From Thermogemmatispora onikobensis (GTDB lineage Bacteria; Chloroflexota; Ktedonobacteria; Ktedonobacterales; Ktedonobacteraceae): DNA of 64,000 nucleotides. The position numbers were made by a program, and so were the translations under genes. Position 1 is the first letter of the stretch. Every line of letters starts with the position of its first letter. Below the pieces are notes generated by a model that ran no database searches, was not told the DNA's origin, and worked only from the letters and a program-made list of their open reading frames with translations. Below, in pieces: positions 1,647 to 22,363 of this stretch. The stretch is taken from positions 62,001 through 126,000 of the forward strand of contig NZ_BDGT01000006.1 in the NCBI RefSeq assembly GCF_001748285.1, given 5' to 3'.

Positions 1647-2663
1647 ATGAAGACCTTTCTGGCAATCACCAGTTACGGACTGGCCGCTGCCACGGGCGGT
1701 CAGCATGATGCCTGGTCTGTCGAGATGCTGCTCGACGAGCAGGCGGTGACCTGCCTGGCCGTCGATCCGCTGAATCCACAGGTGCTCTATGTGGGAACCA
1801 GGGGCAATGGAGTGCTGTGCTCGAACGATGGCGGCAGAACCTGGCGCCCAGCAGGATTAGCTGGATACTTCATCAAAGCCCTGGCCGCCAGCCCGACCCA
1901 GCCCGGAACGGTCTACGCCGGGACCAAACCAGCGCGCGTCTTCGTTTCGCACAATAGCGGCGCGAGTTGGACGGAGCTGGTCGCGTTTCGGCGCATTCGC
2001 TCGCGCTGGTTCTGGTTCACGCCTGCTGAAAAGCCTCACAGTGCTTACGTGCAGGCGATTGCGCTCTCGCCCACCGACCCCAAAACCATTGTGGTGGGCG
2101 TTGAGTTTGGAGCGGTGGTGCAAAGCCGCGATGGGGGGCACTCGTGGACAGGCCACCGTCGGGGTGCGCTGCGCGATTGCCATTCCCTTGCTTTCCATGT
2201 CAGCAATGGCTCCTGGGTCTACGAGGCGGGCGGTACTGGGGCGGGCGTCTCGGTCAGTCGGGATGCTGGCGTTACCTGGACGCAACCCAGGGAAGGGCTT
2301 GACCGGCACTATGGTTGGGCCGTTGCTGCCGATCCTGCCTGTCCAGAGGTCTGGTATGCCTCCCTGTCTCCCAGTCCTGGATCAGCCCACAGCGAGCACA
2401 ATGCTCAAGCGGTCATTGCTCGTTCAGTTGGAGACGCGCCCTGGCAACTCCTGGCAGGGGGGTTACCGCAGCCACTCAATCATATGCCGTACGCGCTGCT
2501 CACCGATCCTGCGGCCCCGGGCCATGTCTACGCTGGTCTCGCCAATGGCGAGGTCTGGCATTCAACTCATTACGGTGAAAGCTGGCGTCGTCTGCCAGTC
2601 CAGTTTGAAAACATTCACCGGACGTTGGTGCTGCTCTCGTCAGGAAAAGCGGATCTGTCATAG
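1647..2663 (+). CDS. Asp-box (BNR/sialidase-type) beta-propeller protein
   Basis: A protein of 338 residues carrying at least four Asp-box motifs of the S-x-D-x-G-x-[ST]-W type: SNDGGRTW, SHNSGASW, SRDGGHSW and SRDAGVTW, each preceded by 'VYVGT', 'VYAGT' or 'VVVGV' strands. This is the pattern of sortilin/VPS10-like or glycosidase-like six- or seven-bladed propellers. No sialidase catalytic arginine triad is obvious and there is no clear signal peptide, so it may be a cytoplasmic binding or scaffold protein. The ATG at 1647 follows GGAGGAAGGG; a GTG at 1629 in frame is a less likely start. Confidence 0.7.
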   Translation: MKTFLAITSYGLAAATGGQHDAWSVEMLLDEQAVTCLAVDPLNPQVLYVGTRGNGVLCSNDGGRTWRPAGLAGYFIKALAASPTQPGTVYAGTKPARVFVSHNSGASWTELVAFRRIRSRWFWFTPAEKPHSAYVQAIALSPTDPKTIVVGVEFGAVVQSRDGGHSWTGHRRGALRDCHSLAFHVSNGSWVYEAGGTGAGVSVSRDAGVTWTQPREGLDRHYGWAVAADPACPEVWYASLSPSPGSAHSEHNAQAVIARSVGDAPWQLLAGGLPQPLNHMPYALLTDPAAPGHVYAGLANGEVWHSTHYGESWRRLPVQFENIHRTLVLLSSGKADLS

Positions 2664-2832
2664 CCATACCCAGCAAGGCAAGCCCCTGCTGTCGACACAT
2701 CCAGACCAGACGGGTTTGCGTCTTCGGTGCTGTCTGTTCCTCTGAGCAGCAACCCAACGCGGGCGAGCAGCAGACAGCGCTGCTGGGACACCCGCGCGAG
2801 TCAGAGAGCAAAGAGAAAAAGGAGTCTTGACG

Positions 2833-3453
2833 ATGATCACTAGAGCGTTGCGTTGGAGTGGGGTAGCCCTAGTCGCAGGAGGATTAGGCATGGGGGCGGC
2901 GATCGTACTCGTCGCGTTCGGACCCTCGGGACGGTTCCCGCCTTCCCTGGTGAGCAGCCTGCTCCTGGTGGCGTCCCTCCTGGTCCTGCTGGCCTTGCCG
3001 ACTATGTACGCCCACCAATCAGAGGCGGCGGGCTGGCTTGGACTGGTGGGCTACGTGTTGCTGGAAGTCGGCATGGTACTCGTCCTTGTGTACGCTGCCG
3101 AGCCGCTCTTCACCCCAACAATTACGGGAGTAGGGGAAAGCGCTGCCGCCTTTTCCCTTGGAATTGCGCTGCTCTTGGGCTTCGTCCTGACAGCAGTAGC
3201 CACGCTCCGCGCCGGAGTCTATCCGCGCTGGTCAGCCATTCTGCTCCTGGCAACAAGTGCCGGATTCCTGTTCGATTTTTTCGTGGCCGAGGAGTTGCCA
3301 CCCATCGCTGGCCTGCTCGATAGCGCCTTCTTGGGGGTGATGATGGCGTCAGCCTTTGGCGGGATAGGGGGTGCCCTCTGGAGAGGTGCCAGCCAGACCG
3401 CGGCGTCAAGGTTCTCTTCTCCACGCGATGGGCAACGAGCTGCTCACCTGTAG
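2833..3453 (+). CDS. Six-helix membrane protein, function unknown
   Basis: About 206 residues, strongly hydrophobic, with roughly six membrane spans (for example LVAGGLGMGAAIVLVAF, LLLVASLLVLLALPTMY, ALLLGFVLTAVATL, AILLLATSAGFLF). Similar membrane proteins are frequent in Chloroflexota and Actinobacteria without an assigned role. The ATG at 2833 is used because AAAGGAG lies eight bases upstream; a TTG six bases earlier is too close. The C-terminal tail is polar (SRFSSPRDGQRAAHL). It stands alone between the propeller gene and the decayed region that starts at about 3.5 kb. Confidence 0.55.
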   Translation: MITRALRWSGVALVAGGLGMGAAIVLVAFGPSGRFPPSLVSSLLLVASLLVLLALPTMYAHQSEAAGWLGLVGYVLLEVGMVLVLVYAAEPLFTPTITGVGESAAAFSLGIALLLGFVLTAVATLRAGVYPRWSAILLLATSAGFLFDFFVAEELPPIAGLLDSAFLGVMMASAFGGIGGALWRGASQTAASRFSSPRDGQRAAHL

Positions 3454-6474: not shown

Positions 6475-6681
6475 GCCATTGGGAGCAAAAACATGATCTA
6501 AGCCGGAGTGCAAGATGACAGGTAGCAGGAATGGAGCCACAGACGGGAGCAAGTACCACGTTCCGTGCTTTCTGGGCCTCACCATTGCTATCCTCAGCGG
6601 ACAGGGCTAGACAGAACACGTTCTTGCGCCAGGCTTCGCCGCTCTAGCCCTTGCAGACACAGAAGAAGGAGGAGGAAAACC

Positions 6682-9600
6682 ATGCAGGAGAGAGACCTCC
6701 AGAAGAAGATATCTGCGCCTATGCTGCCCGCTAGAATTCTCCACCGCCAGCGTTTAGTGGCTTACCTGGAGGCAGCTACAGGGTGGACACAGAAGAAAGA
6801 TGGAAGCAAAGCTCGCTATCAGCTGGTGTCGCTGTGTGCACCCGCTGGCTATGGAAAAACAACCCTCCTGGCTGATTTCGCCTGCTCCACCTCGCTACCC
6901 TGCTGCTGGTATTTTCTAGAGCAGGAGGATGGCAATTGGGCTGTTTTTCTTCGTACTCTTCTGAAGAGCCTGCAAAACCTGTTTCCATCTCTATGTGAGC
7001 TTGAGCCTCTTTTCACGAATCTGCTGTGCGACGCAGGAGCTACTTCGGCTTATATCTACCAACCAGCCCTTGATGCTCTCGGTCAGGCACTGGCTGAAGT
7101 AGCCAGGCAGGGTTTTGCTATTTTCCTGTGTAACTATGCAGAAGTCAGTGCTCATGCCCCCCTGGCCCAGCTCCTTCACTACCTGCTCAAGAGACTGCCA
7201 CCATCGGCCACGCTCGTGTTAGAGAGCCGTGTCACCCTGGGCCCCTCGTTTGCACCGCTCTTTGCCCAGCAGCAAATCTGCACTATGAACAAAGCACTGT
7301 TGCGCTTCACTGCCCGGGAGATTGTCGAGCTGGCCCGTTTGCAGGGCCTAAGCGGACTGTCTGAAGAGGAAGCTGAACGGCTCGCGCACGACTTTGATGG
7401 CTGGATTACTGGCATACTGTTGGCAACCCGTTTGGGAGAGCAGGCTGTCCCTGATCCTGACGAGTTCGGAATACCTGAGCGGACGAAGCCATGGCACCAG
7501 CACGGGGCCCTCGCTGAACAGAGGCGTGCTCATCTCTTTTCGTATCTGCTAGACGAGGTTTTCTCTCATAAGCCAGAAATAAGAAATTTTATACGCCTGG
7601 CCTGTATATTGCAAGGAATGTACCCAGATCTATGTGATGCTCTGCTGGAGACGGACAAAGCCAGAGAATGGCTAGCCTATATGGAGCAGCAAGGATTATT
7701 CGTCACCTCGCATCTAGACCGCGGCCAGTTCCTCTATACCTGTCTTCCAGTGATCCGTGAACTTTTCCGTGAACAGCTGAGACTAAATGATCCAGAACGC
7801 TTCTATGCTCTCCACCGGCGTGCTGCCCAGCTGTGGCAGGACAGAGGGAACTACGAGCGGGCTATGTATCACGCCCTGGAAGCGCGGGCCTATGAGCTGG
7901 CAGGAGACATTCTGATCACTTATGCCAGGTTGCTGCTCCAGCAAGGGCAGATCGATATCATCATGCGCTGGCTTGACGCCCTTCCTGCTCGTTTGTTGGA
8001 GCAGCATCCTCAACTGCTGACGATACGAGTGCATGTCCTGCTAGAGAATGGACAGTGCCAGGAGGCACTCTCTCTTCTTGAGAGGGCTCTAGCTCTTCTA
8101 TCCGAGATTGAGAGCACAAGCACTCATGCATCGCAAAAGAAAGTAGCTTTCCTGGCTGAAATCCATCTTTTGCATAGCAGTGCATTGTTTCAGCAGGGAG
8201 AGTACGCTCAGGCTTTGCAGCTCTGCCAGCAGGTATTGCTGCTCTTGCCTGAGCAAGAAGGCGAGCTACGGGCTGCAGCAGAGATGCGCCTGGGGGTCTG
8301 TGCCTGCCTCCAAGGAGATTTTGCTGCCGGCATCACTTATCTCCAGCAGGCGCTGTGTACCTTGAGCCACCAGCCATCGCTCAAACTGGCCGTCGCAGTC
8401 CATAGCGCGCTGGCCAATACCTACTATCTCGTCAACAAACTTGATCTGGCTGAGCATCATCTCCTGTGCGCGATCGGCCCTTGTGAGCAAGCCCGCAATA
8501 TACGTGGCGTGATCAACAATCGTATTCTCCAGGGCCTGATCCTGGCGAGACGAGGAGCACTCGCCGAAGCGGAAGCTGTCCTGCAGCAGGCACTGGCTCT
8601 GGCACGCTCTACGCCGGGCTATCGCCGGGGGGAAGCCTATGCCCTTGGGAATCTTGGTTCGCTGGCACTTGTGCAAGGGCACAGTCGGCAGGCGCTCGCT
8701 TATTGTCAGGAGGCATTGGAGTTAGCCTGTCACTATGGCAATCGGAGCTTGTGTAACTCCATCTACTCGACCATGGCCCTGGCCTATCTTCTCCTGGGGG
8801 ATCAAATCAGCGCGCGGCATTTTGTGGAAGCGATCAGGATAGGGGGAAGCAGTGGAGCACAAGGTAGCTACGAGTGGGCCTGGAGCAGGCTGACCGCGGG
8901 CCTGGTCTACCTCTATCAGGGCTGCTACGAGCAAGCCTGTACGAGCCTGACGGAAGTCGTCGCCCTTTTGCGAAAGACGGACCTGCGGCAGGAACAGTTG
9001 CTGGCTATGTTGCGCCTGGCAGCCTGTCAGCTAGCTTGTCAACGCCTCAGCGAAGCCGTAGAGCTGCTGGTGGAAGTGGGAAAGTTGCTTGAGGAGAGTA
9101 GCACTGACAAACGGCTGGTGCTGGGGGAGATGGAGCGGCTGGTGGAGCTGCGCACGCTGGTCGAGCGCGAGCCGGAGCTGGAGCACCTGCGCACACTGCT
9201 CGACATAGAAAAGGTCCCTGAACAGGATGCCCCGGCCACACAGAGGGGAGCTGGCATAACGGTCATCGAGGAGCCGAGGGCCAAGTTAAAAATCCTGGCT
9301 TTTGGTGAGCCAGTGGTGCTGGTTGAAGGTCGGCCTATCAAGAAATGGCGCCGTATGAGTGCTATGGAATTGTTCTTTTTCCTCCTGGATAGTGACCGCC
9401 CTCTGAGCAGAGAGCAAGTGATTGCGGCGCTATGGCCCGAGGACTGCGAGCAAGTAGATAAGGCCTTCCATATGTCCCTCTACTACCTGCGCAAGGCGCT
9501 GGGCAAGGCGTGTGTTGTGTTTAGCGTCGATGGCTACAGCCTCAACTTGGCGGCCTGCTATAGAGGAAGCATCTGGTATGACGTCAGAGAGTTTCAAGAG

Positions 9601-10209
9601 AGATGGGCAGCGGCCAGACAGGCACTGACGCGGGGGGAAGAAGAGAACGCTCAGCAGGCATTGCTCAGAATGGTCGAACTCTACCGGGGTGACTATGGAA
9701 GACCGTTCTATAGCGACTGGTGCCGTCAGCGACGCGACGAGCTGTGCACTGCCTATCTGGAGGCCCTGTGCCAGCTAGCGCAGATCGCCTGGAATCGTCA
9801 AGACATGGAGGCATGCATGTATTACTGGCGTAAGGCATTGGCAGTGGATAACTGCATGGAGGAGGCACACTACGGCATCATGCTGTGCTATATGGCACAG
9901 GGCAAACGCAGTGCCGCGCTACGCCAGTACCAACTCTGCAAAAAGATTCTGCAGCAGGAGCTGTGCGTAAAGCCTGGATCATTGTTACAAGAGCTGTACC
10001 GGAGACTCAGCAGCACCGCCGAATCTGCTCAGATGAGACAGATGGCACCAGGCAAATTAAGCGGGCTCTCTGGCTTCCTCCAGAGCCAGGCAGGGGATAA
10101 CACTGACAAGGTATCCATACATAGGACGCCTGCGCAGGCGGAGAGGAAGATGGAGAGAGAATGGAGAGAGGAGGAGCAGTATGCTCCTGAAAGAGGGAAG
10201 GGACAGTGA
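6682..10209 (+). CDS. SARP/BTAD-type transcriptional activator with NTPase and TPRs
   Basis: A 1175-residue one-protein regulator. Residues 53-61 (APAGYGKTT) are a Walker A in an N-terminal MalT/STAND-like ATPase; about residues 330-850 are helical TPR-like repeats (YERAMYHALEA, EYAQALQLCQQ, LAEAEAVLQQALA); from ~870 a winged-helix SARP DNA-binding domain (MSAMELFFFLLDSDRPLSREQVIAALWPE, in part) precedes a BTAD domain (~960-1110, ending ALRQYQLCKKILQQEL). SARP regulators commonly activate secondary-metabolite genes; here the next genes downstream are the putative RiPP cluster, so pathway control is a reasonable inference. The ATG at 6682 follows AGGAGGAGGAAAACC. An upstream in-frame ATG (6565) would add an arginine-rich, implausible extension. 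Confidence 0.85.
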   Translation: MQERDLQKKISAPMLPARILHRQRLVAYLEAATGWTQKKDGSKARYQLVSLCAPAGYGKTTLLADFACSTSLPCCWYFLEQEDGNWAVFLRTLLKSLQNLFPSLCELEPLFTNLLCDAGATSAYIYQPALDALGQALAEVARQGFAIFLCNYAEVSAHAPLAQLLHYLLKRLPPSATLVLESRVTLGPSFAPLFAQQQICTMNKALLRFTAREIVELARLQGLSGLSEEEAERLAHDFDGWITGILLATRLGEQAVPDPDEFGIPERTKPWHQHGALAEQRRAHLFSYLLDEVFSHKPEIRNFIRLACILQGMYPDLCDALLETDKAREWLAYMEQQGLFVTSHLDRGQFLYTCLPVIRELFREQLRLNDPERFYALHRRAAQLWQDRGNYERAMYHALEARAYELAGDILITYARLLLQQGQIDIIMRWLDALPARLLEQHPQLLTIRVHVLLENGQCQEALSLLERALALLSEIESTSTHASQKKVAFLAEIHLLHSSALFQQGEYAQALQLCQQVLLLLPEQEGELRAAAEMRLGVCACLQGDFAAGITYLQQALCTLSHQPSLKLAVAVHSALANTYYLVNKLDLAEHHLLCAIGPCEQARNIRGVINNRILQGLILARRGALAEAEAVLQQALALARSTPGYRRGEAYALGNLGSLALVQGHSRQALAYCQEALELACHYGNRSLCNSIYSTMALAYLLLGDQISARHFVEAIRIGGSSGAQGSYEWAWSRLTAGLVYLYQGCYEQACTSLTEVVALLRKTDLRQEQLLAMLRLAACQLACQRLSEAVELLVEVGKLLEESSTDKRLVLGEMERLVELRTLVEREPELEHLRTLLDIEKVPEQDAPATQRGAGITVIEEPRAKLKILAFGEPVVLVEGRPIKKWRRMSAMELFFFLLDSDRPLSREQVIAALWPEDCEQVDKAFHMSLYYLRKALGKACVVFSVDGYSLNLAACYRGSIWYDVREFQERWAAARQALTRGEEENAQQALLRMVELYRGDYGRPFYSDWCRQRRDELCTAYLEALCQLAQIAWNRQDMEACMYYWRKALAVDNCMEEAHYGIMLCYMAQGKRSAALRQYQLCKKILQQELCVKPGSLLQELYRRLSSTAESAQMRQMAPGKLSGLSGFLQSQAGDNTDKVSIHRTPAQAERKMEREWREEEQYAPERGKGQ

Positions 10210-10567
10210 GAAATAGGGGAGGCAACATACGCAGACTGAGATCCTGTGCTTGATAGGAGAAAGAGCATGCTGACGAGCAATGGAGACCCCGTCTGGCCTT
10301 AAGTTCTCACGGAGCTTCTGTATCTACTGCGGCCATAGCTTATGAGCTGATCCCTGGCAGTGAAGGTCTTCCAGGTCCAAGGAACAATAACAGGAAAACA
10401 CCTGAATCGCTCGATGAATCTGCTATGAAAAGATTCTGCTGGTGAGAGGCAGTGTCACACTTCGCATGAAGATTAGCCTGTTCCAGGGCCATACTCAGCT
10501 CGATGCACTAATGCAGATTCTACGAGTGATGAAGCGTTTTGCAGATTTTAAGGAACAAGGAGGCCAT

Positions 10568-11026
10568 TTGAGGAAGGCGATAGTGGCACGGAAGGTGCCA
10601 GATGAGCGGAAGACCGGTACTGCTATCCTCTCGGCTCAGCAATTGCGCTGGCGCGAGAGCGTGGCCTTCGACGCGGATCTGACCGTGGTGTTTGAACCCA
10701 GGCAGCTCTATGAGTTTAACACCCGGCTGTGAAGCGATCCGACCTGGCTGAGGGCACTACAGGAGCGACCGGATGAGCTGCTGGCCGCCTTCGGGCTGGC
10801 GAAGGCAGTGGCCTTGCTGCCCAAGGACACGGTGCTGGAGAACCGCCGGCTTACCGCTGAGGAGCTGGCCGCCATGCGCCAGATCATGGCTGCCGCCAGC
10901 CAGCAGGAGCTGTTCCTTCAAGCTCAAAAGGCACTGGGAACAGCTCTCAAGGACGACGGCTATGGTTTGCCACTCCTTGTAAGCCCAACAATTATCGCAG
11001 TCATTATGATCACCCTGCTGTGGTGA
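10568..11026 (+). pseudogene. Precursor-peptide copy 1, interrupted by in-frame TGA
   Basis: First of four homologous genes. A TTG start five bases after AAGGAGG opens a frame of 152 codons aligning end to end with copies 2 and 3 (DERKTGTAILSAQQLRWRES; ERPDELLAAFGLAKAVALLP; TVLENRRLTAEELAAMRQIM). At 10730-10732 the tryptophan codon TGG of the other copies is TGA; the frame continues intact beyond it to KDDGYGLP and a hydrophobic tail (LLVSPTIIAVIMITLLW). One point mutation thus separates it from a full gene. It may be dead, read through at low level, or split. The preceding 350 bases (10210-10567) contain no other gene that I can see. Confidence 0.65.
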
Positions 11027-11059
11027 GATTCTCCCCAAAGAAAAAAAGGAGGCTGTTCA

Positions 11060-11512
11060 ATGAACGCGACAGAAGCACGGAAAGCTCTGGATGAGCGGAA
11101 GACCGGTACTGCTATCCTCTCGGCTCAGCAATTGCGCTGGCGCGAGAGCGTCGCCTTCGACACGGATCTGGCGGTGGCGTTTGAACCCGCGCAGCTCTAT
11201 GAGTTTAACGCCCGGCTGTGGAGCGATCCGACCTGGCTGAGGGCACTGCAGGAGCGACCGGATGAGCTGCTGGAAGCCTTCGGGCTGGCGAAGGCAGTGG
11301 CTTTGCTGCCCGAGGACACGGTGCTGGAGAACCGCCGGCTTACAGATGAGGAGCTGGCCGCCATGCGCCAGATCATGGGAATCGCTAACGAGCGGGGCCT
11401 GCTCTCCCAGGAGGCACTGGAGGGAATGCTTAACCAGGATGGCTATGGTCTGCCAGCAGTCGCAGTTCTGATTCTCCTCCTGGTTGTAGTTGTGTGCATT
11501 TGCGTTGCCTAA
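11060..11512 (+). CDS. Putative RiPP precursor, copy 2 (NHLP-like leader)
   Basis: 150 residues. The N-terminal ~120 residues are almost identical to copies 1 and 3, including at the DNA level, and contain 'LWSDPTWLRALQERPDELLEAFGL' (read in parts) then 'LPEDTVLENR', which has the shape of the nitrile-hydratase-like leader (NHLP) of proteusin-type precursors. After the conserved QDGYGLP the tail is unique and very hydrophobic (AVAVLILLLVVVVCICVA, two Cys). A conserved leader joined to a divergent core is the hallmark of RiPP families. Strong ribosome binding site (AAAAAAAGGAGG). The adjacent radical SAM enzyme is the likely modifier. An alternative is a small membrane-anchored protein family of unrelated function. 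Confidence 0.7.
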   Translation: MNATEARKALDERKTGTAILSAQQLRWRESVAFDTDLAVAFEPAQLYEFNARLWSDPTWLRALQERPDELLEAFGLAKAVALLPEDTVLENRRLTDEELAAMRQIMGIANERGLLSQEALEGMLNQDGYGLPAVAVLILLLVVVVCICVA

Positions 11513-11558
11513 GCATGCTAGCTCAGCAGCCTGACTTTCAATCGTGGAGAGGACTGAC

Positions 11559-12023
11559 ATGTTAAACGCGACAGAAGCACGGAAAGCTCTGGATGAGCGG
11601 AAGACCGGTACTGCCATCCTCTCGGCTCAGCAATTGCGCTGGCGCGAGAGCGTCGCCTTCGACACGGATCTGACCGTGACGTTTGAACCCATGCAGCTCT
11701 ATGAGTTTAACACCCGGCTGTGGAGCGATCCGACCCGGCTGAGGGCACTGCAGGAGCGACCGGACGAGCTGCTGGAAGCCTTCGGGCTGGCGAAGGCAGT
11801 GGCCTTGCTGCCCGAGGACACGGTGCTGGAGAACCGCCGGCTTACTGCTGAGGAGCTGGCCGCCATGCGCCAGATCCTGCTGGCCGCCAGTGAGCGGGGC
11901 CTGCTCTCTCAGGAAGCGCTAGAGCTGGCCCTCAGTGATGAGGGCTACGGCTTGCCTGCAGTTGCCGCTCTCGCTTTGGCAGTAGCCATTGCTGTTTATC
12001 TCTGGGTGTATCTCTGGGGATAG
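11559..12023 (+). CDS. Putative RiPP precursor, copy 3 (NHLP-like leader)
   Basis: 154 residues, starting MLNATEARKALDERKTGTA. It is near-identical to copy 2 through the leader, with the same SAQQLRWRESVAFDTDLT segment and 'LLEAFGLAKAVALLPEDT'. The region before the tail reads GLLSQEALELALSDEGYGLP and the tail AVAALALAVAIAVYLWVYLWG, aromatic-rich and different from the other copies. The ATG at 11559 has GGAGAGG seven bases upstream; a GTG at 11544 overlaps that ribosome binding site. A terminator-like hairpin follows at 12042-12082. Confidence 0.7.
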   Translation: MLNATEARKALDERKTGTAILSAQQLRWRESVAFDTDLTVTFEPMQLYEFNTRLWSDPTRLRALQERPDELLEAFGLAKAVALLPEDTVLENRRLTAEELAAMRQILLAASERGLLSQEALELALSDEGYGLPAVAALALAVAIAVYLWVYLWG

Positions 12024-12041
12024 GCTCCATTCCAACGAGCG

Positions 12042-12082
12042 AGGGACCGGTACAGTGCTGGTTGCCTGCCCCGGTCCCTTTT
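12042..12082 (+). terminator. Terminator or attenuator between precursor copies 3 and 4
   Basis: AGGGACCGG (12042-12050) pairs with CCGGTCCCT (12071-12079) followed by TTT, with a 20-base loop. Placed between the abundant precursor genes and the biosynthetic genes, it could partially terminate transcription and set the precursor-to-enzyme ratio. Confidence 0.5.
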
Positions 12083-12122
12083 GTGAAGTGGCCTGCTGTG
12101 GCGTTGGAATCATACCCACGGC

Positions 12123-12320
12123 ATGGACCTCGAGGAGAACCGCCGGCTTACCGCTGAGGAGCTGGCCGCCAGTGAGCGGGGCCTGCTCTCCCAGGAAGCG
12201 CTAGAGCTGGCCCTCAATGATGAGGGCTACGGTTTGCCTGCAGTTGCAGTTGTCTGCGTTGCGGTCACTGTTGTTACTTGCATGTCTCTGTTTATTTTTT
12301 TGTGGCTCACGGGAGCATAG
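12123..12320 (+). CDS. Short precursor-like copy 4 lacking most of the leader
   Basis: A 65-residue frame (MDLEENRRLTAEELAASERG...) homologous to the last part of copies 1-3. It lacks the first ~95 residues and has a further 7-residue internal deletion after 'EELAA'. It keeps LNDEGYGLP and has its own tail, AVAVVCVAVTVVTCMSLF plus IFLWLTGA, with two cysteines. No good ribosome binding site precedes the ATG. Either a decayed duplicate or a leaderless substrate acted on in trans. The intact, distinct tail argues against simple decay, but expression is uncertain. Confidence 0.45.
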   Translation: MDLEENRRLTAEELAASERGLLSQEALELALNDEGYGLPAVAVVCVAVTVVTCMSLFIFLWLTGA

Positions 12321-12375
12321 GAGTTGGTGTTGTCCTGTGAGCTTACCTCCGGCTGGAAATCTGAAGGAGGGAAGC

Positions 12376-13416
12376 ATGCTTCCAAGTCTTTTTTCGATAT
12401 TTCTAGACTACAAGTGTAATTTCTGGTGTGGCCACTGCAGCGTAGGAAGCAGCCCTCGCACAGTCATGCCCATGCCACGAGAGCTTCTCCTCAAGATTAT
12501 GACCGAGCTTCGGGAAGTGCCAACGGCCAAGGTGGTTGTTTTTACTGGCGGTGAGGCGACGTTGCGCAAGCAGCTCTTGCTCGAGGGGATCTCTCTCGCC
12601 AAAGCAGGTGGCTATGTGACGCGTGTGGTCAGCAATGGTGGATGGGCGACGACGCCAGAGCGTGCCCGCGCGATGGTTCGGGACCTCAAAAGCGCCGGTC
12701 TAGACGAGCTCAATACCAGCTATGACGATTTTCATGCTCCTTTTGCATCGATAGAATGCATTGTCAATCTGGTGCGAGCTGGTCTGGAAGAGGGGCTTCG
12801 GATTGGCCTGGGGGTGATCGTGGACAAGAACGCTACCTGGGATGCGGCAGCTGTGCGACGGGCCCTCAGCGAAGGGCTAGGGATGGAGATCGCCGAGATC
12901 GAAAAACGGGTGACAATTCTGGAGGACTATCCAACCCCTACTGGCTCAGGGGAACAGTTGGATGTGAACGGCCTGGATGCGGGAGACAAGCTCAACATGG
13001 GCTGTCCAGAAGTGCTCAAGACTGTCTCCCTGCACCCGAATGGTATGGTCAAGGCTTGCTGTGGGCATGCGATGTTCTACGCTCAGGATTTAACCTTGGG
13101 CAATCTGAACGAAGAGCGCCTGATTGATATTCTTACGCGAAGTCAGCAGAATCTCGTCTACTGGTGGCTTCATATGTTAGGTCCGAAGCGCATTCTTGAT
13201 AAGCTCGGCGTAGAGGGGACCTATACCAGCATCTGTCATGCCTGCCAGGCGCTGCTTGCTGACCATCGGCAGGCAATGCTGGAGTACTTGAAAGCCCACC
13301 GTGATGAGGTACTCCTGCAGGATGTTGTGCTTGGCGATAGCCTGAAGCGCGTTTCGACGATTGTCCTCAAGCGGAAAGAAGAGATTCTTGCCCAAATGAG
13401 AAGGCTGGAGTCATGA
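12376..13416 (+). CDS. Radical SAM/SPASM peptide-modifying enzyme
   Basis: 346 residues. The radical SAM [4Fe-4S] motif CxxxCxxC is at Cys14, Cys18 and Cys21 (KCNFWCGHC), followed by a glycine-rich SAM-binding 'FTGGEATL'. The C-terminal part has SPASM-like cysteines: Cys210 (MGCPEV), Cys228-Cys229 (KACCGH), then 'LTLGNLNEE' and Cys287/Cys290 (CHACQ), expected to bind auxiliary clusters. A 'YDDFHAPF' motif lies mid-protein. Its position between precursor genes and transporters points to modification of the precursor tails (thioether, C-C crosslink or epimerisation; chemistry not predictable). The start at 12376 has GAAGGAGGGAAGC upstream. The stop overlaps the next start as ATGA. Confidence 0.85.
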   Translation: MLPSLFSIFLDYKCNFWCGHCSVGSSPRTVMPMPRELLLKIMTELREVPTAKVVVFTGGEATLRKQLLLEGISLAKAGGYVTRVVSNGGWATTPERARAMVRDLKSAGLDELNTSYDDFHAPFASIECIVNLVRAGLEEGLRIGLGVIVDKNATWDAAAVRRALSEGLGMEIAEIEKRVTILEDYPTPTGSGEQLDVNGLDAGDKLNMGCPEVLKTVSLHPNGMVKACCGHAMFYAQDLTLGNLNEERLIDILTRSQQNLVYWWLHMLGPKRILDKLGVEGTYTSICHACQALLADHRQAMLEYLKAHRDEVLLQDVVLGDSLKRVSTIVLKRKEEILAQMRRLES

Positions 13417-14324
13417 GCACCATTGCATTAGAATCCGTCACGGCTGGCTATGGACAGTCACTCGTCCTCCACGAGATCAATCTGGCCTTCGATTCAGGTT
13501 TTCATGTGATCCTGGGAAGCAATGGAGCGGGCAAGACAACACTGTTCCGTGTCGGGGTGGGTATTCTCCCACCCCGCGCAGGCATAGTTTCTGTCCTGGG
13601 GTATGAACCGCATCGAGACAGTGAAGTCAAGCGTCTGATCGGCTACCTCCCGCATCGCCCTTCCCTCTCGGCAGCGCTCAGCGTGCGAGATAACCTGGAA
13701 TTCTGGGGGCAAGTGCTCCGGCTTCCTTCCGCCCAGCGGCGGTCACGGATCGACCAGGTGGTCGCTGATTTGGAACTGAGTGATCTCCTATCCAAGCCAG
13801 CAGCTTCCTTGAGTAGAGGCCAGGCGCAGCGGGTAGCTATTGCTCGTGCTCTGCTCGGCGCTCCACAGGTGCTCTTTCTGGACGAGCCGACGACGGGTCT
13901 CGATCCATTGGCAGCACGTTCCTTGCGCGAGCTACTCAAGGGGTTGGCTCGGGCAGACAAAACGATCATTTATTCAACACATAATCTCTATGAGGCAGCT
14001 GAGCTGGCTGATGATGTGACCTTGATTGCGGCTGGTCGGGTAGTAGATCGTGGCTCCGTAGAAGCGTTGCACCAGCGTCATGCTCGTGCGCAGCGAGTCT
14101 GTCTGACAGTCGAGGGAGATCCGCGAACCATCCTGAGCGACCTGGGGTATGAAGCGGTACCAGACAGGGAGCAGTGGATTGTAGATCTTTCGGACCGGGC
14201 GGAGCGCAGTCGCATCGTGGCAGCGCTGGTGCAGGCGGGACTTCCTGTCCTTGAGGTACGGGAGCTGGGCAGTCCTCTTGAGGCAGTCTATGAAGACCTG
14301 GAGAGCGGAGGTCAACGTGTCTGA
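13413..14324 (+). CDS. ABC transporter ATP-binding protein
   Basis: 303 residues with Walker A GSNGAGKTT, signature LSRGQAQR, Walker B VLFLDEPTTGLDP and an H-loop histidine in 'IIYSTHNLYEA'. The C-terminal ~80 residues form an accessory domain as in CcmA/ABC-2-type exporters. It overlaps the radical SAM gene by four bases and the following permease by eight, so translation is coupled and it forms one exporter with that permease. Likely substrate: the modified peptide or its protective efflux (inference). Confidence 0.9.
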   Translation: MSTIALESVTAGYGQSLVLHEINLAFDSGFHVILGSNGAGKTTLFRVGVGILPPRAGIVSVLGYEPHRDSEVKRLIGYLPHRPSLSAALSVRDNLEFWGQVLRLPSAQRRSRIDQVVADLELSDLLSKPAASLSRGQAQRVAIARALLGAPQVLFLDEPTTGLDPLAARSLRELLKGLARADKTIIYSTHNLYEAAELADDVTLIAAGRVVDRGSVEALHQRHARAQRVCLTVEGDPRTILSDLGYEAVPDREQWIVDLSDRAERSRIVAALVQAGLPVLEVRELGSPLEAVYEDLESGGQRV

Positions 14325-15186
14325 GTTAGAGCACGAGGTTTTCTCTGACGAGGATGCCGATCTTCTGGAGGCATCCAGTGGCCTGGATCGGGTGCTGCAG
14401 CTTACCGGGGCGTTATTATGGCGTGGGCGGCGCGAGCAGGGCGTGCGCTTGCTGGTGATTCCTCTCGCATTTGCTCTTTTTTTCCTCCTGCTTTGCCTGG
14501 TCACTCTGTATTTCCCCGGGCTGCTAACACCGCTTTCACGTTTCGCTATTCAGGCGCAGGCCCAGGCCTACTTTGGAGCGACGGTGCATGGCAATGCGGG
14601 CTTGGCTATGGCTTTGCTCCTCATTCAGGGGCCCTATCTCATTGCCCTGTTCGCGGCCTTCATGGGTGCGACCCTGGCTCAAAACCTCGTTGGAACTGAG
14701 GCCGCTCGTGGCGGGCTAGAGCTGCTGCTGAGTTCCGCCTATCGCGTGCAAGAAGTCTTTGTGGCCTTCCTTCTGGCTTCCTTTGTCCTGACCATCTGCC
14801 AATGGGCGATTCTTGCCCTAGGAACGCTCGGCGCAGCGGCGACTGTTCTGGCCCTACTGCGAATCGCTTTCACGCTGCAGGCCCGCTACATTGCCCTTGC
14901 CGTTGCCGTGCCATTGCCTATTGCCCTCTGGGCAAACCTGGGGGCCCTCTTTCTGGGTATGGCTTTTCCGCGGTTAACCCAGATCCGTACTGGCAGCACG
15001 ACCAACTTGATGCAATTGCTCGCTGCACTGCCAGCCCTGGCGCTGCTGATCCTGATTAATATTCGCCCGGATCTCAATGCCGGATTAGTTGCAGCGATTG
15101 CCCTGGGAGTAGGTCTTGCCGGATCTCTCGTCAGCGCCGTGCTGCTGCGGGTCCGTTTTCGACCAGAGTTCGTGCTTGAGGCCTGA
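14317..15186 (+). CDS. ABC-2-type permease
   Basis: 289 residues with about six transmembrane helices (LLVIPLAFALFFLLLCL, LLIQGPYLIALFAAFMGA, VAFLLASFVLTICQWAIL and so on), a cytosolic N-terminus of about 45 residues rich in Glu/Asp, and the long second loop of ABC-2 exporters. The GTG at 14317 is chosen because GGAGG lies just upstream and overlaps the ATPase stop by eight bases; the long upstream open frame is inside the ATPase gene. Partner of the preceding ATPase. About 275 bases without a gene follow. Confidence 0.8.
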   Translation: MSELEHEVFSDEDADLLEASSGLDRVLQLTGALLWRGRREQGVRLLVIPLAFALFFLLLCLVTLYFPGLLTPLSRFAIQAQAQAYFGATVHGNAGLAMALLLIQGPYLIALFAAFMGATLAQNLVGTEAARGGLELLLSSAYRVQEVFVAFLLASFVLTICQWAILALGTLGAAATVLALLRIAFTLQARYIALAVAVPLPIALWANLGALFLGMAFPRLTQIRTGSTTNLMQLLAALPALALLILINIRPDLNAGLVAAIALGVGLAGSLVSAVLLRVRFRPEFVLEA

Positions 15187-15462: not shown

Positions 15463-15696
15463 ATGCTGTTACCGCTGTCAAGTCTGATGACCCATACGCA
15501 AAGTACGGCCCCCGTCGGCTTGCTATGGCCTCTCTTGGCTTTGGACCTCATTCTGATTGCGATCGCGCTAGTGGACCTGATCCGGCGAGATCCGCGCACC
15601 GTGCGTGGCAAGAAGATCATCTGGGCTCTGATCATCCTTTTCATCAGTACCCTCGGCCCTATCTGCTACTTTGTCCTGGGGCGTAAGGAGGTCTAA
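15463..15696 (+). CDS. PLDc_N-domain small membrane protein (YxlE-like)
   Basis: About 77 residues with two hydrophobic helices (LLWPLLALDLILIAIALVDL and IIWALIILFISTLGPICYFV) and the closing 'YFVLGRKE', the recognisable end of the PLDc_N (phospholipase D-nuclease N-terminal) family. In Bacillus subtilis the same order, yxlE (PLDc_N), yxlF (ATPase) and yxlG (permease), occurs in the sigY operon linked to bacteriocin-type immunity. Here it directly precedes an ATPase and a permease, so a self-immunity role is inferred. An alternative ATG at 15430 lacks a ribosome binding site. Confidence 0.7.
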   Translation: MLLPLSSLMTHTQSTAPVGLLWPLLALDLILIAIALVDLIRRDPRTVRGKKIIWALIILFISTLGPICYFVLGRKEV

Positions 15697-15697
15697 G

Positions 15698-16663
15698 ATG
15701 GCCGCTCCTGGCGAGGCGATCATCCGGTGTGAAGGTCTGCGCAAGACCTATGGATCGGTTGAAGCTCTCAAAGGGTTAAATTTGACGGTTTATCCTCACA
15801 GCATCTTTGGCCTCCTCGGCCCCAATGGCGCAGGTAAGAGCACTGCCATCAAGCTGCTCACGCGCCAGATCAGGCCCACCAGTGGTCAGGCCTGGGTGGC
15901 TGGAGCGTCAATCACTAGCGCGAAAGCTGATGTGCGAGCTCGCATCGGCTATCTCAGTGAGCAGCCTGCTCTCTACACGTGGATGAGTGGCCAGGAATTC
16001 CTGGATTTCACTGGCGAACTGTTTGGGTTGAGTGCTAGAGACCGACGGCGCCGACGTGACGAGCTGCTTGAGCTGGTCGGCCTGACCGCTGCTGCCAGGC
16101 GCAGAATTGGCAGCTACTCCAATGGGATGCGCCAGCGTCTGGGCATCGCTCAGGCGTTAGTGAATCGTCCGGAGGTCCTTTTTCTAGATGAACCTGTGTC
16201 TGCGCTGGACCCAATTGGTCGCAAGGAAATCCTGGAGCTTTTTCAACGCCTCAAAGGCGAAGCCACTGTCTTCTTCTCCTCGCACGTGCTGGCCGACGTC
16301 GATCGCATCTGCGACGCTGTGGCAGTCCTCAATCGCGGCGAGCTGCTCGTGCAGGCTTCGATCGCTGAACTGAAGGAGCGCTACGCTCCGCCGATGATCT
16401 CGGTTGAGCTGGAATGTGCGACTGAAGATCTCCAACGTCTGCTGGCCCGGGAACCCTGGGTCCAGCACATCACTGTCAGTGGAAGCAGAGCGACTATCTT
16501 GGTGAGAGACCTGGCAACCGCTAAACGTGCTTTGCCAGCCCTACTGGTCAATGCTGGTTTGCCGCTGCTGCGCTATGAGGTGACGCAGCCCACGCTTGAA
16601 GATGTGTTCCTTCGCCTTGTGGGGAAAGTAGACAATCTGTCAGGAACTGGGGAGGGAGCATGA
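15698..16663 (+). CDS. ABC transporter ATP-binding protein (YxlF-like)
   Basis: 321 residues with Walker A GPNGAGKST, signature YSNGMRQRL (the variant typical of ABC-2 exporters), Walker B VLFLDEPVSALDP and 'VFFSSHVLADVDRI'. It opens with MAAPGEAIIRCEGLRKTYG and ends in an accessory alpha/beta domain closing in 'TLEDVFLRLVG'. The ATG at 15698 follows AAGGAGG, one base after the stop of the PLDc_N gene. It overlaps the following permease by four bases (ATGA). Probably part of the export or immunity arm of the RiPP locus. Confidence 0.9.
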   Translation: MAAPGEAIIRCEGLRKTYGSVEALKGLNLTVYPHSIFGLLGPNGAGKSTAIKLLTRQIRPTSGQAWVAGASITSAKADVRARIGYLSEQPALYTWMSGQEFLDFTGELFGLSARDRRRRRDELLELVGLTAAARRRIGSYSNGMRQRLGIAQALVNRPEVLFLDEPVSALDPIGRKEILELFQRLKGEATVFFSSHVLADVDRICDAVAVLNRGELLVQASIAELKERYAPPMISVELECATEDLQRLLAREPWVQHITVSGSRATILVRDLATAKRALPALLVNAGLPLLRYEVTQPTLEDVFLRLVGKVDNLSGTGEGA

Positions 16664-17436
16664 ACCTCTATGCCTTCTGGCCCATGCTCAAGAAGGAATT
16701 TCGTGAGCAAAGCCGTACCTACCGTTTCGTGATCGCTGTCATCGTTTTTCTCTTGCTTGGGATCTCTGCCCCGATTATCACCTGGCTGACCCCTGATCTC
16801 CTGAAGAACCTGGGGAACGGCGCCACGATTATTCTGCCACCGCAGACTGCCACTGACGCGCTCAACACTTATTTGAAGAATATGGTGCAACTGCCGGCCC
16901 TGGCTCTTATCCTACTGGCTATGGGGGCCATCGCTGATGAGCGCAGTCGAGGAACGGCAGTGACTATCTTGACGAAGCCTGTTCCGCGCCCTATCTTTGT
17001 GCTGGCAAAGTTCCTGGCCTATGAGGGAACGCTCATCATCAGTTTGACGCTCGCTGCCGTTGGGGCCTACTATTATACCGGTCAGCTCTTTCGCCCGCTT
17101 CCTGTCGGCCCCTTTCTGATACTGAACATCGCTCTTCTGGCTTTCTTGACACTTACCCTGGCCCTAACGATCCTGTGCAGCGCATTAGTGCGCAACAGCA
17201 TTGCCGCTGGGGGAATGGCGTTCGTTGGCTTCCTTGTCCTCGTGGTAGTGCCCAATCTCAACGCCTCGATCAGCAGGGTTTTGCCATCGGTACTCTTCCG
17301 CCCCGAGCGTGTGGCCCAGTTGGTAGCTGGCACAGCGTCGTTGGGAGAGACGCTCTGGCCGCTGCTCGTCGGTCTGGGTCTGGCCGGCCTCCTTGTGGTG
17401 CTCACATGTCTGGTGTATCACTCCCAGGAGATCTAA
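16660..17436 (+). CDS. ABC-2-type permease (YxlG/NosY-like)
   Basis: 258 residues, about six helices (FVIAVIVFLLLGISAPII, LALILLAMGAIADE, LIISLTLAAVGAYYY, FLTLTLALTILCSALV, AFVGFLVLVVVPNL, LVGLGLAGLLVVLTCLVY). The segment 'DERSRGTAVTILTKPVPR' is characteristic of NosY/ABC-2 permeases. It starts inside the stop codon of the ATPase, so the pair is translationally coupled. It is the last gene of the apparent operon; about 520 bases without a clear gene separate it from the convergent cas3. Confidence 0.85.
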   Translation: MNLYAFWPMLKKEFREQSRTYRFVIAVIVFLLLGISAPIITWLTPDLLKNLGNGATIILPPQTATDALNTYLKNMVQLPALALILLAMGAIADERSRGTAVTILTKPVPRPIFVLAKFLAYEGTLIISLTLAAVGAYYYTGQLFRPLPVGPFLILNIALLAFLTLTLALTILCSALVRNSIAAGGMAFVGFLVLVVVPNLNASISRVLPSVLFRPERVAQLVAGTASLGETLWPLLVGLGLAGLLVVLTCLVYHSQEI

Positions 17437-17959: not shown

Positions 17960-20404
17960 TCAGGAGCCAGAGCGATCAATTGCGTCTTGTGGCAACACCA
18001 GACCTAGCTCCGGATCGTACGGGGCCTCCACCATCGGGATCGATGACCCCGACCGGGCCCGGGCTCTCAGCGGCAGGTGCCGGACCTGATGACGCTGGAC
18101 CAGCGCCTGATAGGTTCGATAGCTGAGTGGTACACACAGCTGGGTGGCTTCCAGCAGCTCGCCCGCTTCCAGCAAGTCCCGATAGTCCTGCTCCAACCTG
18201 CCAGGAAGGACCTCCATGCCATCAAAGAGCTGAGCAAACGCTTCTTCTCCGTGCGCATGCGCCTGAAACGGTCGCAGCTGTTTCAGCAGCCAGCTCGCCA
18301 ATTCGAACTGCTCCCCGTAACTGCGTTGCCAGGGGTCTGCCAGCTCGGGGTCCTCATAGATGGCATCCAGCCAGTGCTGAAGAGCCACTTCATCGATCAC
18401 CTGAGACTGATACTCTTCCAGTTTGCTCAATGTCCGGGCGACCAGACCAGGGAGATAGATCCCCTGTCCATCCTGCGGGGAGCGGAAAACATGCACGGGA
18501 ACGATCCCCTTGCTGCCGGCACGGTTGACGCGCCCGAAGCGTTGGACCAGGGCCTCCAGCGGGGCGGGATCAGTGTAGATTGTATCGACATCCAGGTTGA
18601 GACTGACCTCGACCACCTGGGTGGCAACGAGTGCTAACGCCTGCCGTGCCGCTCCTGCCCCGGTGCGCTCCAGAATCTGCGCTTCCCGGACCTGGCGATC
18701 ACGGGCGGTGAAGCGGCTGTGCAGCAGCAAGACCTGTTCCGCTGCCAGCACCTGGCGCAGCTGCTGGTAGAGCCGCTGGGCGCGTCCCACAGTGTTACAG
18801 CAGGCCATGACCATGTTCCCCTGCTTGACCTGAGCAGCAACCCGCTTCCAGCCCTCTTCCAACAAGTCCCCATCCAGCAGGTGGAGTTGATGGCGCCTCC
18901 AGCGCTGCAACAGCTCTGCTTCTGCCACGATTGGCTCAGGCAGCGCCAGTGCCTCAATGAGTCGTTGTCGTACCAGGGAAGGAAGCGTGGCCGACATGAT
19001 CAGCATGCGAGCTCCATAGCGCTGCTGCAGATACTGCAGCAATGCCACGATCAGGGCAAGCCGCTCTGCATCGTAGGCGTGGATTTCATCGAAGATAAAG
19101 AGGGCCTGCGTATAGTCTGTCAACATTCCCTCAAAGCCCTTGATGCGATAGAGCACTTTGAGCAGCTGATAAGGGCTGAGCACTTTGAGTGGATAGGCAT
19201 GCAGGCGATTCAAATTGAGAGACCAACGGGCTGCTTCGCGCGCTGTGGCCGGACCCATCTCTGTGGCCAGTAGCTGCTGATAGAGGGCCTGGAAGGCATG
19301 CCCGTGCTGGAGGCCGACCGTTCCGGCTCCAAAGTAGGACGGGTGACTGAGCCGCTGGTACATGGCATTGATGCTGGCTTGATAGGGGAGCACATAGAAC
19401 AGGCGGGGCACTGGCTGTGCCCCGTCCCCCAGGGCCCAGTAAAGTGCCGCCTCCGTTTTGCCACTTCCAGTCGGCGCGATCAGCAGCGTCGATTGCCGTG
19501 CCCGCTCCGCGCAGGCTCGCTGGTAGGCATAGGGCTGTGGATCAGCTCGCCCTGGCTGACTCCACTGTCTGGCTACCAGCAGCGGACGTAGACGTCTTTC
19601 AAGGTGCTGCCAGGATTCTGGTATCCCTGCCGGAATCCGTGCCAGGTGCGCTGAGGCAGCATGATCGGCCGTCGTCAACAAGCCACGCAACAGCACCAGC
19701 AACGGTGCCAGATGGGCCCTGTGCGGACGCCGCCACTCTTCCAGGCTCTCGAGATAGAGATCCAGCCAGGTCCGAATACGCTCTGGACCAGCACGACAGA
19801 CCATCTGCAGCGCCTCTTCTTTCTCTGGGAGGGCGACAGCTTCGACACCGGCGCTCTCCAATCCCAGCAGGCTGATCCAGGGAGCGGAGCAGATGCGCAG
19901 CCAGCGCCACAGTCCTTCGACAACTGGCGGCTCCAGTTGGTTGACCATTTCCGCAAGAACCTCAGTCTGCCCACAGTACGCTGTGATGATCTCCTCCGCC
20001 TCCTTATGATGGGAAACGATAGTGGCCACCAGCCACTGCTGCTCCTCGTGGGAGCATGCGTGGGCGATCCAATCCAGGAAAGCCAGAGAGAGGACCTCAT
20101 GGCGATAGGGCCAGCTCTGATCTGGATGGCGCAACATCTGCTGAAACCCACGAGCAGCCTTCCCCAGATCGTGCAGGAAGCAGGCCCAGAACAGGCAATG
20201 CCAGAGGCGGGGAGCGTGCAGTAAGACAGCCAGCTGCGGCCGCAGCCGCACCAGATCGGCCAGGCGCTCCAGGACCAGCCAGGTGTGAGCAGCCAGGCTC
20301 TCACCCACTGGCGGTGATCCTCCTTCTCTCTCGTGAGGGCTTCTCTTTGCCCAGAGATCGCAATCTCCCTGATTCAGCCAGTCAGGCCAAGGGGAAGGCT
20401 GCAT
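17960..20404 (-). CDS. cas3: Cas3 helicase-nuclease (type I-B CRISPR)
   Basis: 814 residues with the fused layout HD nuclease then SF2 helicase. HD ligands: His40, His78-Asp79 (FLHDLGKAARGFQ), His102 (YRHEVLSLAF) and 'IVSHHK'. Helicase: Walker A IAPTGSGKTEAAL (~residue 312), DEIH box (LFIFDEIHAYD, ~437), motif III MSATLP, and a C-terminal 'QRFGRVNRAG'. It unwinds and degrades DNA recruited by Cascade. The ATG at 20404 is preferred because GGAGAG lies just upstream; it overlaps the end of cas5 by about 22 bases. It is the last gene of the minus-strand effector operon. Confidence 0.92.
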   Translation of the reverse strand: MQPSPWPDWLNQGDCDLWAKRSPHEREGGSPPVGESLAAHTWLVLERLADLVRLRPQLAVLLHAPRLWHCLFWACFLHDLGKAARGFQQMLRHPDQSWPYRHEVLSLAFLDWIAHACSHEEQQWLVATIVSHHKEAEEIITAYCGQTEVLAEMVNQLEPPVVEGLWRWLRICSAPWISLLGLESAGVEAVALPEKEEALQMVCRAGPERIRTWLDLYLESLEEWRRPHRAHLAPLLVLLRGLLTTADHAASAHLARIPAGIPESWQHLERRLRPLLVARQWSQPGRADPQPYAYQRACAERARQSTLLIAPTGSGKTEAALYWALGDGAQPVPRLFYVLPYQASINAMYQRLSHPSYFGAGTVGLQHGHAFQALYQQLLATEMGPATAREAARWSLNLNRLHAYPLKVLSPYQLLKVLYRIKGFEGMLTDYTQALFIFDEIHAYDAERLALIVALLQYLQQRYGARMLIMSATLPSLVRQRLIEALALPEPIVAEAELLQRWRRHQLHLLDGDLLEEGWKRVAAQVKQGNMVMACCNTVGRAQRLYQQLRQVLAAEQVLLLHSRFTARDRQVREAQILERTGAGAARQALALVATQVVEVSLNLDVDTIYTDPAPLEALVQRFGRVNRAGSKGIVPVHVFRSPQDGQGIYLPGLVARTLSKLEEYQSQVIDEVALQHWLDAIYEDPELADPWQRSYGEQFELASWLLKQLRPFQAHAHGEEAFAQLFDGMEVLPGRLEQDYRDLLEAGELLEATQLCVPLSYRTYQALVQRHQVRHLPLRARARSGSSIPMVEAPYDPELGLVLPQDAIDRSGS

Positions 20405-21143
20405 ACGGCGTCTCTCCAAAGGTGTGAAACATCAGGCCGAGGTGCATTCCCGCGATCACAGGGGAGGTTGGATCAACCCAGAAGCGGGATGACTGCCCTG
20501 TTCGCTGCTGCCGTTGCTCCTCCTCAAACCAGAACTCTCGGCTACTGGCGCGTCCTTCCAGCACCAGATAGTGGGAGAAGGTGGGAGCACGTTTGCGCTC
20601 ATAATCAAGATAGCGCGGCAGTAGTTCCACATGTCCGCGTCCCAGGAGCCGGACCATGTCGCGTGGCAGCAACGTGTGCTCAAAGTAGGCTTCCTGAGCC
20701 TGCACCAGCTCGATTTGCTCCACCGAGGTATAGGTGAACAGGTCCTGGGACCGCCCCAGCACCACCGCATAGCGAGGCCGACGGAATGCCTCCAGCCAGT
20801 CCGGGCGCGTGAGATAGAGCGTCAGTCTCGGGCGGAACAGAATTTCTCGCTTAAATGGCTGCAGCCCTCCCGATATCGCTTGTGGGAAGGAAGTTCCTTT
20901 CAGCTTGCCGCGAGCCTCCGTCAACAAAATGGTATGTTCCAGGTCAAAGAACGTGGCCTCGCTCGTAAAGCGGTAGGCAAAGGCGACACTCTCAGGCGAG
21001 ATCAACTCTCCAAGTGCGCTGCAGATATGCCCATAGATCGTCGCTGGAGGAGGCATACGAAACGTCGGCTGGATGCCATGCATGAAATGCGGCAGGCGGA
21101 ACGAGGTGGTGATGCCCTCCGCCTGGATCTTGAGCACACGCAT
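20382..21143 (-). CDS. cas5: Cas5 (type I-B)
   Basis: 253 residues with the Cas5 N-terminal signature: MRVLKIQAEGITTSFRLPHF followed by 'PPPATIYGHICSALGE', the glycine/proline-rich RAMP stretch that binds the crRNA 5' handle. The C-terminus carries 'MHLGLMFHTFGETPYAAFPL'. Belongs to the Cas5t group accompanying Cst1/Cst2-type I-B systems. The ATG has GGAGGAAT eight bases upstream. It overlaps cas3 and is separated from cas7 by 145 bases that hold no gene. Expected to sit at the foot of the Cascade backbone. Confidence 0.88.
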   Translation of the reverse strand: MRVLKIQAEGITTSFRLPHFMHGIQPTFRMPPPATIYGHICSALGELISPESVAFAYRFTSEATFFDLEHTILLTEARGKLKGTSFPQAISGGLQPFKREILFRPRLTLYLTRPDWLEAFRRPRYAVVLGRSQDLFTYTSVEQIELVQAQEAYFEHTLLPRDMVRLLGRGHVELLPRYLDYERKRAPTFSHYLVLEGRASSREFWFEEEQRQQRTGQSSRFWVDPTSPVIAGMHLGLMFHTFGETPYAAFPLA

Positions 21144-21288
21144 AGGGATTCCTCCGTGATTACCTGCAAGAAGGCTGGGCCCCAGGCCGCTTATGACTGC
21201 TCATCTCCAGGCCTCCACCGCTCCATCGTGAGCGAGGAGTGGATGGGAGAAGTCAGAGAGAGACTGAGCCATCGCCTGGACGCCAGCT

Positions 21289-22362
21289 CTACTCGAACCA
21301 GAAGGAGTTTGCGGGCTGAGCCAGGTCATCTCCAAAGGCACGAAATGCCTCGCGCGGATGGCGGATCACGTGCGCAAGATCCAGGCTGGCCAGATCTTGT
21401 TCTATCTCTTCACGCTGCTCATCCAGATAGCCACGCACCCAACCGACGTAGAGCGGCGAGAGAATCTCGGCGCGCATGACCGTGAGGGTCTCCCGCAGTG
21501 CCTCCCGTTTGATCTGGGGAACGCCTCCTCTGGCTCCGATCACGTGTCCAAAGAGATGATTGCCGCCGCGTGTCACCGCCAGCAGGCAGAGGACAGGCGC
21601 CACATCGGTGTAATGAATCGCCAGTTTGGCGCCCCCTTCGAGCAGCGCCAGGGCTTCAAACAAGGCCCGGATTCGCTGGATGCGCTCCGGCAGCGGTAAA
21701 CGATACGCTTTTTCTTGCTCTAGATGTTCGAGCTGCAATTCTTGTGCCTCTTTTATCCTGGGCTCGTCGAGATGGCGATAGCCAGCTTTATTGCGATAGG
21801 AAAAGGTACCGCAGGCGTGCAGGTCGAGGGAGAACAGCCCCTGGAGGGTCGTTCGATAGAGCTGATGTTCGAATGGGACGGGGTCTCCCTCATGGCGAGC
21901 CATCACCCCGAAATCTGTCGTGATCTTGACGGGAGCGATCGAAACAAGCGTGCTCACACGAAAAGGCGAGCTGCGTGTGACTGGCTCCACAGTGCTGGTG
22001 ACTGACTCCTGTTCTGCTGTGCCACCGCCACCACGTGTCTCTCTGCTCCCTCTCTTCGTAGGAGCACGCATATAGCCAAACAAGTCATCATCCCACCAGC
22101 GCAAAGGATTGCTATCAGTATAGGCGATCTTCTCTTCACGAATCACCGGCGCTGCCTTCCAGCCAGGGACCCGCCGCTCTGCTGTGGTGCGTACCCAATA
22201 GCGAAAAGCTTGGGCAGACACGTAGGGGAAGGCCTTGCCGTCGGGAGTAAGAATCATCTTGACGCCAGCAGTATTGTCGACTCGCTCGCCGGGGATACTC
22301 CCAAGATTATTTAACGCCGACGCTGGTGCATCCAGCAAGAAGAGACCGGTCACAAAGGCCAT
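21289..22362 (-). CDS. cas7: Cas7 / DevR-family (Cst2) Cascade backbone
   Basis: 357 residues. The start 'MAFVTGLFLLDAPASALNNL' and then 'VSAQAFRYWVRTT' are typical of the Cas7/Cst2/DevR family that polymerises along crRNA. A 'LFSLDLHACGTFSYRNKAGYRHLD' region (read in parts) and a C-terminal helical segment follow. The ATG at 22362 is one base from the cas8 stop and sits after GGAGGAGGAAT, giving tight coupling. A longer upstream frame (to 22500) is only overlap with cas8. The linker near residues 95-115 is glycine/arginine-rich (TKRGSRETRGGGGT), a possible disordered insert. Confidence 0.88.
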   Translation of the reverse strand: MAFVTGLFLLDAPASALNNLGSIPGERVDNTAGVKMILTPDGKAFPYVSAQAFRYWVRTTAERRVPGWKAAPVIREEKIAYTDSNPLRWWDDDLFGYMRAPTKRGSRETRGGGGTAEQESVTSTVEPVTRSSPFRVSTLVSIAPVKITTDFGVMARHEGDPVPFEHQLYRTTLQGLFSLDLHACGTFSYRNKAGYRHLDEPRIKEAQELQLEHLEQEKAYRLPLPERIQRIRALFEALALLEGGAKLAIHYTDVAPVLCLLAVTRGGNHLFGHVIGARGGVPQIKREALRETLTVMRAEILSPLYVGWVRGYLDEQREEIEQDLASLDLAHVIRHPREAFRAFGDDLAQPANSFWFE

Positions 22363-22363
22363 G

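Follow-up and report, generated by a model that had tools for sequence, protein, structure and literature searches.

Probable recent loss of two of four tandem precursors in an epipeptide-like radical SAM cluster of Thermogemmatispora

The described systems closest to the locus analyzed here are the epipeptide operons, such as yydFGHIJ/epeXEPAB of Bacillus subtilis. The YydF/EpeX precursor has about 49 residues. According to the accessible part of one source, the epipeptide leader has 32 residues, and epipeptide epimerases appear to be leader independent (PMC8326336). We analyzed a stretch of 64,000 nucleotides, referred to here as the window, that contains a cluster resembling these operons. 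As in B. subtilis, a radical SAM/SPASM protein, here one whose strongest matches are YydG/EpeE, is encoded together with adjoining ABC transporter genes, and the precursors end in a hydrophobic C-terminal tail. The window cluster therefore has the ABC transporter expected of epipeptide operons. It differs in its precursors: there are four copies in tandem, some 150 residues in length, that share an extended leader. Instead of the short precursor expected of an epipeptide cluster, the intact precursors compared here have 150 to 158 residues, with a leader of about 106 residues followed by a hydrophobic tail of its own in each copy. Epipeptide operons include the membrane protease YydH/EpeP, but no protease family of any kind scored over a cut-off when eight proteins of the window cluster were scanned against Pfam and NCBIfam. 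The features are as follows.

10568..11026, + strand: precursor c1, TTG start, 152 codons including the internal TGA; nonsense mutated
10874..11026, + strand: candidate internal start ATG of c1 behind TGAGGAGC; 50-residue putative product containing the whole tail
11060..11512, + strand: precursor c2, intact, 150 aa
11559..12023, + strand: precursor c3, intact, 154 aa
12123..12320, + strand: precursor c4 remnant, tail intact; deletion of the Shine-Dalgarno sequence (SD), the start codon and the greater part of the leader
12376..13416, + strand: radical SAM/SPASM protein, closest to the peptide epimerases YydG/EpeE
13413..14324, + strand: ABC transporter ATPase (family searches)
14317..15186, + strand: membrane protein, probable ABC-2 permease (position and a sub-threshold ABC2_membrane_2 match, E 0.16)
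15463..15696, + strand: small PLDc_N-domain membrane protein (family search); an immunity role would be a guess
15698..16663, + strand: second ABC ATPase, DrrA-like (family searches)
16660..17436, + strand: ABC-2 permease (family search)

The best NCBIfam family for the radical SAM protein was TIGR04078 (YydG/EpeE), with a score of 116.4 bits that lies below the 300-bit cut-off of the family. Among solved structures, the only strong matches were likewise YydG/EpeE (PDB 8ai6, E 8.7e-24). This neighboring YydG/EpeE-like enzyme probably modifies the c1 to c4 peptides, whose chemistry and activity are inferred. Relatives of the enzyme at an E value of 1e-20 or below were found in 5 of 301 sampled genomes of the phylum, four of the same genus (including the window's own) and one distant, and no publication on YydG in Chloroflexi turned up in one literature search. 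Thermogemmatispora aurantia also carries another YydG-like radical SAM gene, which lies on the minus strand of L023 next to an ORF of 238 residues (1393-2454 and 2629-3345). This ORF has a very hydrophobic tail rich in Ala, Val, Ile and Asn, and the pair is a possible second long-leader system.

Neither Pfam nor NCBIfam gave a match over the cut-off for precursors c2 or c3, and a TOMM nitrile-hydratase-type leader appeared in the NCBIfam scan only as a weak hint (12.4 bits, E 0.087). The predicted structure of the precursor family had a mean pLDDT of 49.7 and gave no usable model. TMcins were considered for the hydrophobic tail and set aside; neither "radical SAM" nor "epimer" appears in the accessible part of PMC13252029. 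An Rfam search for RNA elements over 10200-12500 returned just two chance-level matches, and a promoter and terminator scan gave no signal above that of shuffled sequences. Directly upstream of the cluster, a 1,214-aa ORF (6565-10209) resembles a LuxR/SARP-type regulator and is possibly the regulator of the cluster. Farther downstream, long ORFs on the minus strand (17960-23920) resemble a type I CRISPR-Cas operon.

Precursor c1 contains an in-frame TGA. The codons CTG TGA AGC are found at 10727-10735, with the TGA at 10730-10732 as codon 55. No other stop interrupts the frame between the TTG start at 10568 and the TGA at 11024-11026 that terminates c1. The stop with an open frame on either side, pointed out in an earlier note on this DNA, is thus read directly from the window. 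To place it, precursor genes were sought in 61 genomes. Matches were found in four, including the window's own, and all belong to one genus, Thermogemmatispora. No precursor match was found in two other members of the genus (G003 and G004) or in 55 other genomes, which are therefore of no help in dating the c1 mutation. The codon was TGG in 11 of the 11 intact full-length copies from the four Thermogemmatispora genomes and TGA in 1 of the 12 full-length copies. The 11 intact copies are c2 and c3 of the window, c1 to c4 of T. aurantia, c1 to c4 of HOG59 (a MAG) and c4 of T. tikiterensis; the window c4 remnant, in which the codon is absent, and T. tikiterensis c1 to c3 were left out of the count. 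The latter are covered by a run of N (L017 6134-7873), which may be an assembly gap or a masked stretch; near-identical tandem copies break assemblies. The statement that all other copies have TGG thus holds in the window for c2 and c3, the two copies there that retain the codon, but not for c4, which lacks the region.

In T. aurantia and HOG59, the orthologues of c1 are free of internal stops, have the same start and tail, and carry TGG at this codon; the disabling mutation is therefore absent from them. The SD before the TTG of c1 is strong, and both the TTG start and the intact SD are common to these orthologues (L015 7510-7968 in T. aurantia and L016 4319-4777 in HOG59). The unusual start is therefore ancestral and no part of the damage to c1. 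Phase-variable silencing, which had been proposed for the stop, found no support: no simple repeat tract was seen there by eye, and the change is a single G-to-A. We know of no phase switch that works by such a single base change.

The identity of the codon in relatives also bears on programmed selenocysteine insertion at the c1 TGA. The genome encodes the machinery for it, with SelA (578.8 bits), SelB (351 bits) and a tRNA-Sec with anticodon UCA. As a positive control, a formate dehydrogenase-like gene of the same genome (L038 1924-1974, G000:C4), a probable selenoprotein gene, contains a TGA in frame, and downstream of it lies a hairpin of six pairs whose GGUCU loop is of the bacterial SECIS type. 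However, no SECIS-like hairpin follows the TGA of c1, and the codon specifies Trp in all 11 homologues, neither Cys nor TGA. Fold energy alone is no discriminator, with z scores of -0.44 (control) and -0.59 (c1). Selenocysteine insertion in c1 is close to refuted; even where a genome can insert selenocysteine, a TGA within a reading frame is by itself no proof of recoding. A code in which UGA specifies Trp was rejected as well, since TGA ends 5 of the 10 genes of the cluster checked for their stop (c1, the two ABC ATPase genes, the first permease gene and the gene of the radical SAM protein).

If c1 were no longer maintained, its leader could carry further changes, and such changes were found. 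Within alignment columns 1 to 106, the other 11 copies agree on 81, and the c1 leader departed at 5 of these (E6V, L11P, T36A, the stop and E86K, in c1 numbering), whereas each of the other 11 copies departed at 0 or 1 column (of 81 or 82). The Poisson probability of the c1 departures (mean, 0.36) was about 4e-5 with the stop and 5e-4 without it; these, like all P values given here, are indicative only, since apparent gene conversion among the copies means that they are not independent. Private codons, seen in no other copy, were counted over codons 5 to 106: there were 6 nonsynonymous (N) and 0 synonymous (S) ones in c1 against 5 N and 12 S in the others together (Fisher p 0.0046). With HOG59 as the reference for polarization, the N/S counts on the window lineage were 8/6 for c1, 5/7 for c2, 1/5 for c3 and 1/8 for the radical SAM gene, which is thus still constrained. 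The excess of departures in c1 (5 of 81 against 0 or 1) stands beside polarized counts that did not differ significantly between c1 and c2 plus c3 (8:6 versus 6:12, Fisher p 0.28), although c1 did differ from the radical SAM gene (p 0.04). The c1 tail had 0 N and 3 S changes, its amino acids being unchanged, which means either that the loss is very recent or that decay is confined to the leader. The earlier note had held that only the Trp-to-stop change separates c1 from function; the four other leader changes at positions invariant in the 11 intact copies contradict this, as does a second broken copy, c4 (see below).

The same private codons are relevant to the very unlikely alternative that the TGA is an assembly or sequencing error and that the genome really has TGG. 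The window genome is a 5.56-Mb draft in 112 contigs and the single available assembly of the species, and tandem near-identical copies are prone to mis-assembly. Nevertheless, a collapse of paralogues does not account for the base in the TGA, which is unlike that of every other copy; c1 has five other private nonsynonymous codons with no private synonymous one, and the neighboring genes are open.

The dependence among the copies noted above shows in the leaders. Tails are nearly constant between species, and leaders within one genome are often closer to each other than to their orthologues: c1 and c3 of HOG59 differ by 6 bases in the leader, whereas c1 of T. aurantia and c1 of HOG59 differ by 24. 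The same pattern, with copy-specific tails, was observed for several pairs within L015 7510-9566 and L016 4319-6378. Leaders that are closer within than between genomes suggest that the tandem precursors exchange leader sequence by gene conversion.

Precursor c4 is full length in T. aurantia (L015), HOG59 (L016) and T. tikiterensis (L017). The window copy has lost about 284 alignment columns, which hold the start and the greater part of the leader; the junction lies near 12133/12134. A second deletion in c4, near 12167/12168, removed 24 bases between short direct repeats. The third, of about 174 alignment columns, lies at about 12364, in the spacer that separates c4 from the radical SAM gene. 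The SD of the first ATG in the remnant, at 12123, is poor (-3.3 kcal/mol). To judge from the sequences, two of the four precursors (c1 and c4) are disabled in one lineage, in which the enzyme and the exporters are kept.

We consider a recent, lineage-specific loss of two of the four precursors of an epipeptide-like cluster, c1 by a nonsense mutation and c4 by deletion, with c2 and c3 carrying on, to be the best reading of the compared genes, with a probability of roughly 0.84. A TGG-to-TGA mutation in the leader of c1 would have occurred in the window lineage after its split from T. aurantia, so that c1 would now yield no more than about 54 residues of its leader. Under relaxed constraint, other changes would then have piled up in the c1 leader. 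The start and leader of c4 were deleted in the same lineage, and peptide output would now rest on c2 and c3. The loss of the c1 product, and relaxed selection as the cause of the additional changes, we infer from the stop and from the departures of the leader. Most likely, c1 is a recently broken copy undergoing ordinary gene decay, in line with the very recent decay suggested before.

Two ways in which c1 might still yield its peptide were weighed against such a loss. One is leaky expression, in which a near-cognate tRNA-Trp would read UGA-A at a low rate, restore the ancestral Trp and supply a low dose of the c1 peptide. A UGA-reading variant in the anticodon stem of tRNA-Trp has reportedly been described. 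The context of the c1 stop is UGA-A, which favors misreading by tRNA-Trp in E. coli according to the available portion of PMC5289835 (citing Engelberg-Kulka 1981); readthrough is usually 0.1 to 1%, as given in the part of PMC10057733 at hand. A trace of full-length c1 product with the ancestral Trp is therefore plausible, by analogy with these systems. On the other hand, the effect of UGA-A was measured in other organisms, selection for readthrough of c1 was not seen, the terminator of c1 is itself TGA, and the other leader changes would persist despite readthrough. As an account of c1, leaky expression is thus very unlikely.

The other is expression of the tail only. Ribosomes would start at the ATG at 10874, so that the stop is bypassed and a precursor of 50 residues is made, close to the size usual for epipeptides. 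An SD-like GAGGAG lies nine bases upstream of this ATG; its predicted duplex (-7.5 kcal/mol) is stronger than that of the native c3 start (-6.4 kcal/mol), and just 2 of 39 ATG codons inside neighboring genes had as strong an SD. The codons for E97, E98 and M102 (c2 numbering) are the same in all copies and the c1 tail is unchanged; if epimerases are leader independent, as noted above, this tail could in principle still be matured. However, GAGGAG is merely two common Glu codons, the ATG lies 142 bases past the TGA, which is far for re-initiation, and the c4 remnant has lost exactly the ATG corresponding to that at 10874, which counts against a general role of the internal start. We regard tail-only expression as highly improbable. 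A broader version would make the long leader dispensable: c1 (by the stop) and c4 (by the deletion) would have lost a working leader with tails unchanged because a short, YydF-sized peptide, made in c1 from the internal ATG, is modified without a leader or by the c2 and c3 leaders in trans. This, too, we hold to be very doubtful.

With c1 and c4 as lost copies, the cluster would illustrate how a multicopy peptide cluster loses its copies one by one, precursors breaking while the enzyme and transporters stay. More interesting than the stop codon is the epipeptide-like radical SAM cluster of Thermogemmatispora itself, with its four long-leader precursors. A comparable state is found in the epilancin clusters of staphylococci, where, in the accessible part of the source, premature stops or truncations affect single genes of clusters that are intact in other strains (PMC10988021). 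The lesions in those clusters fall in immunity, transporter or dehydratase genes, whereas in the window the tandem precursor copies are hit.
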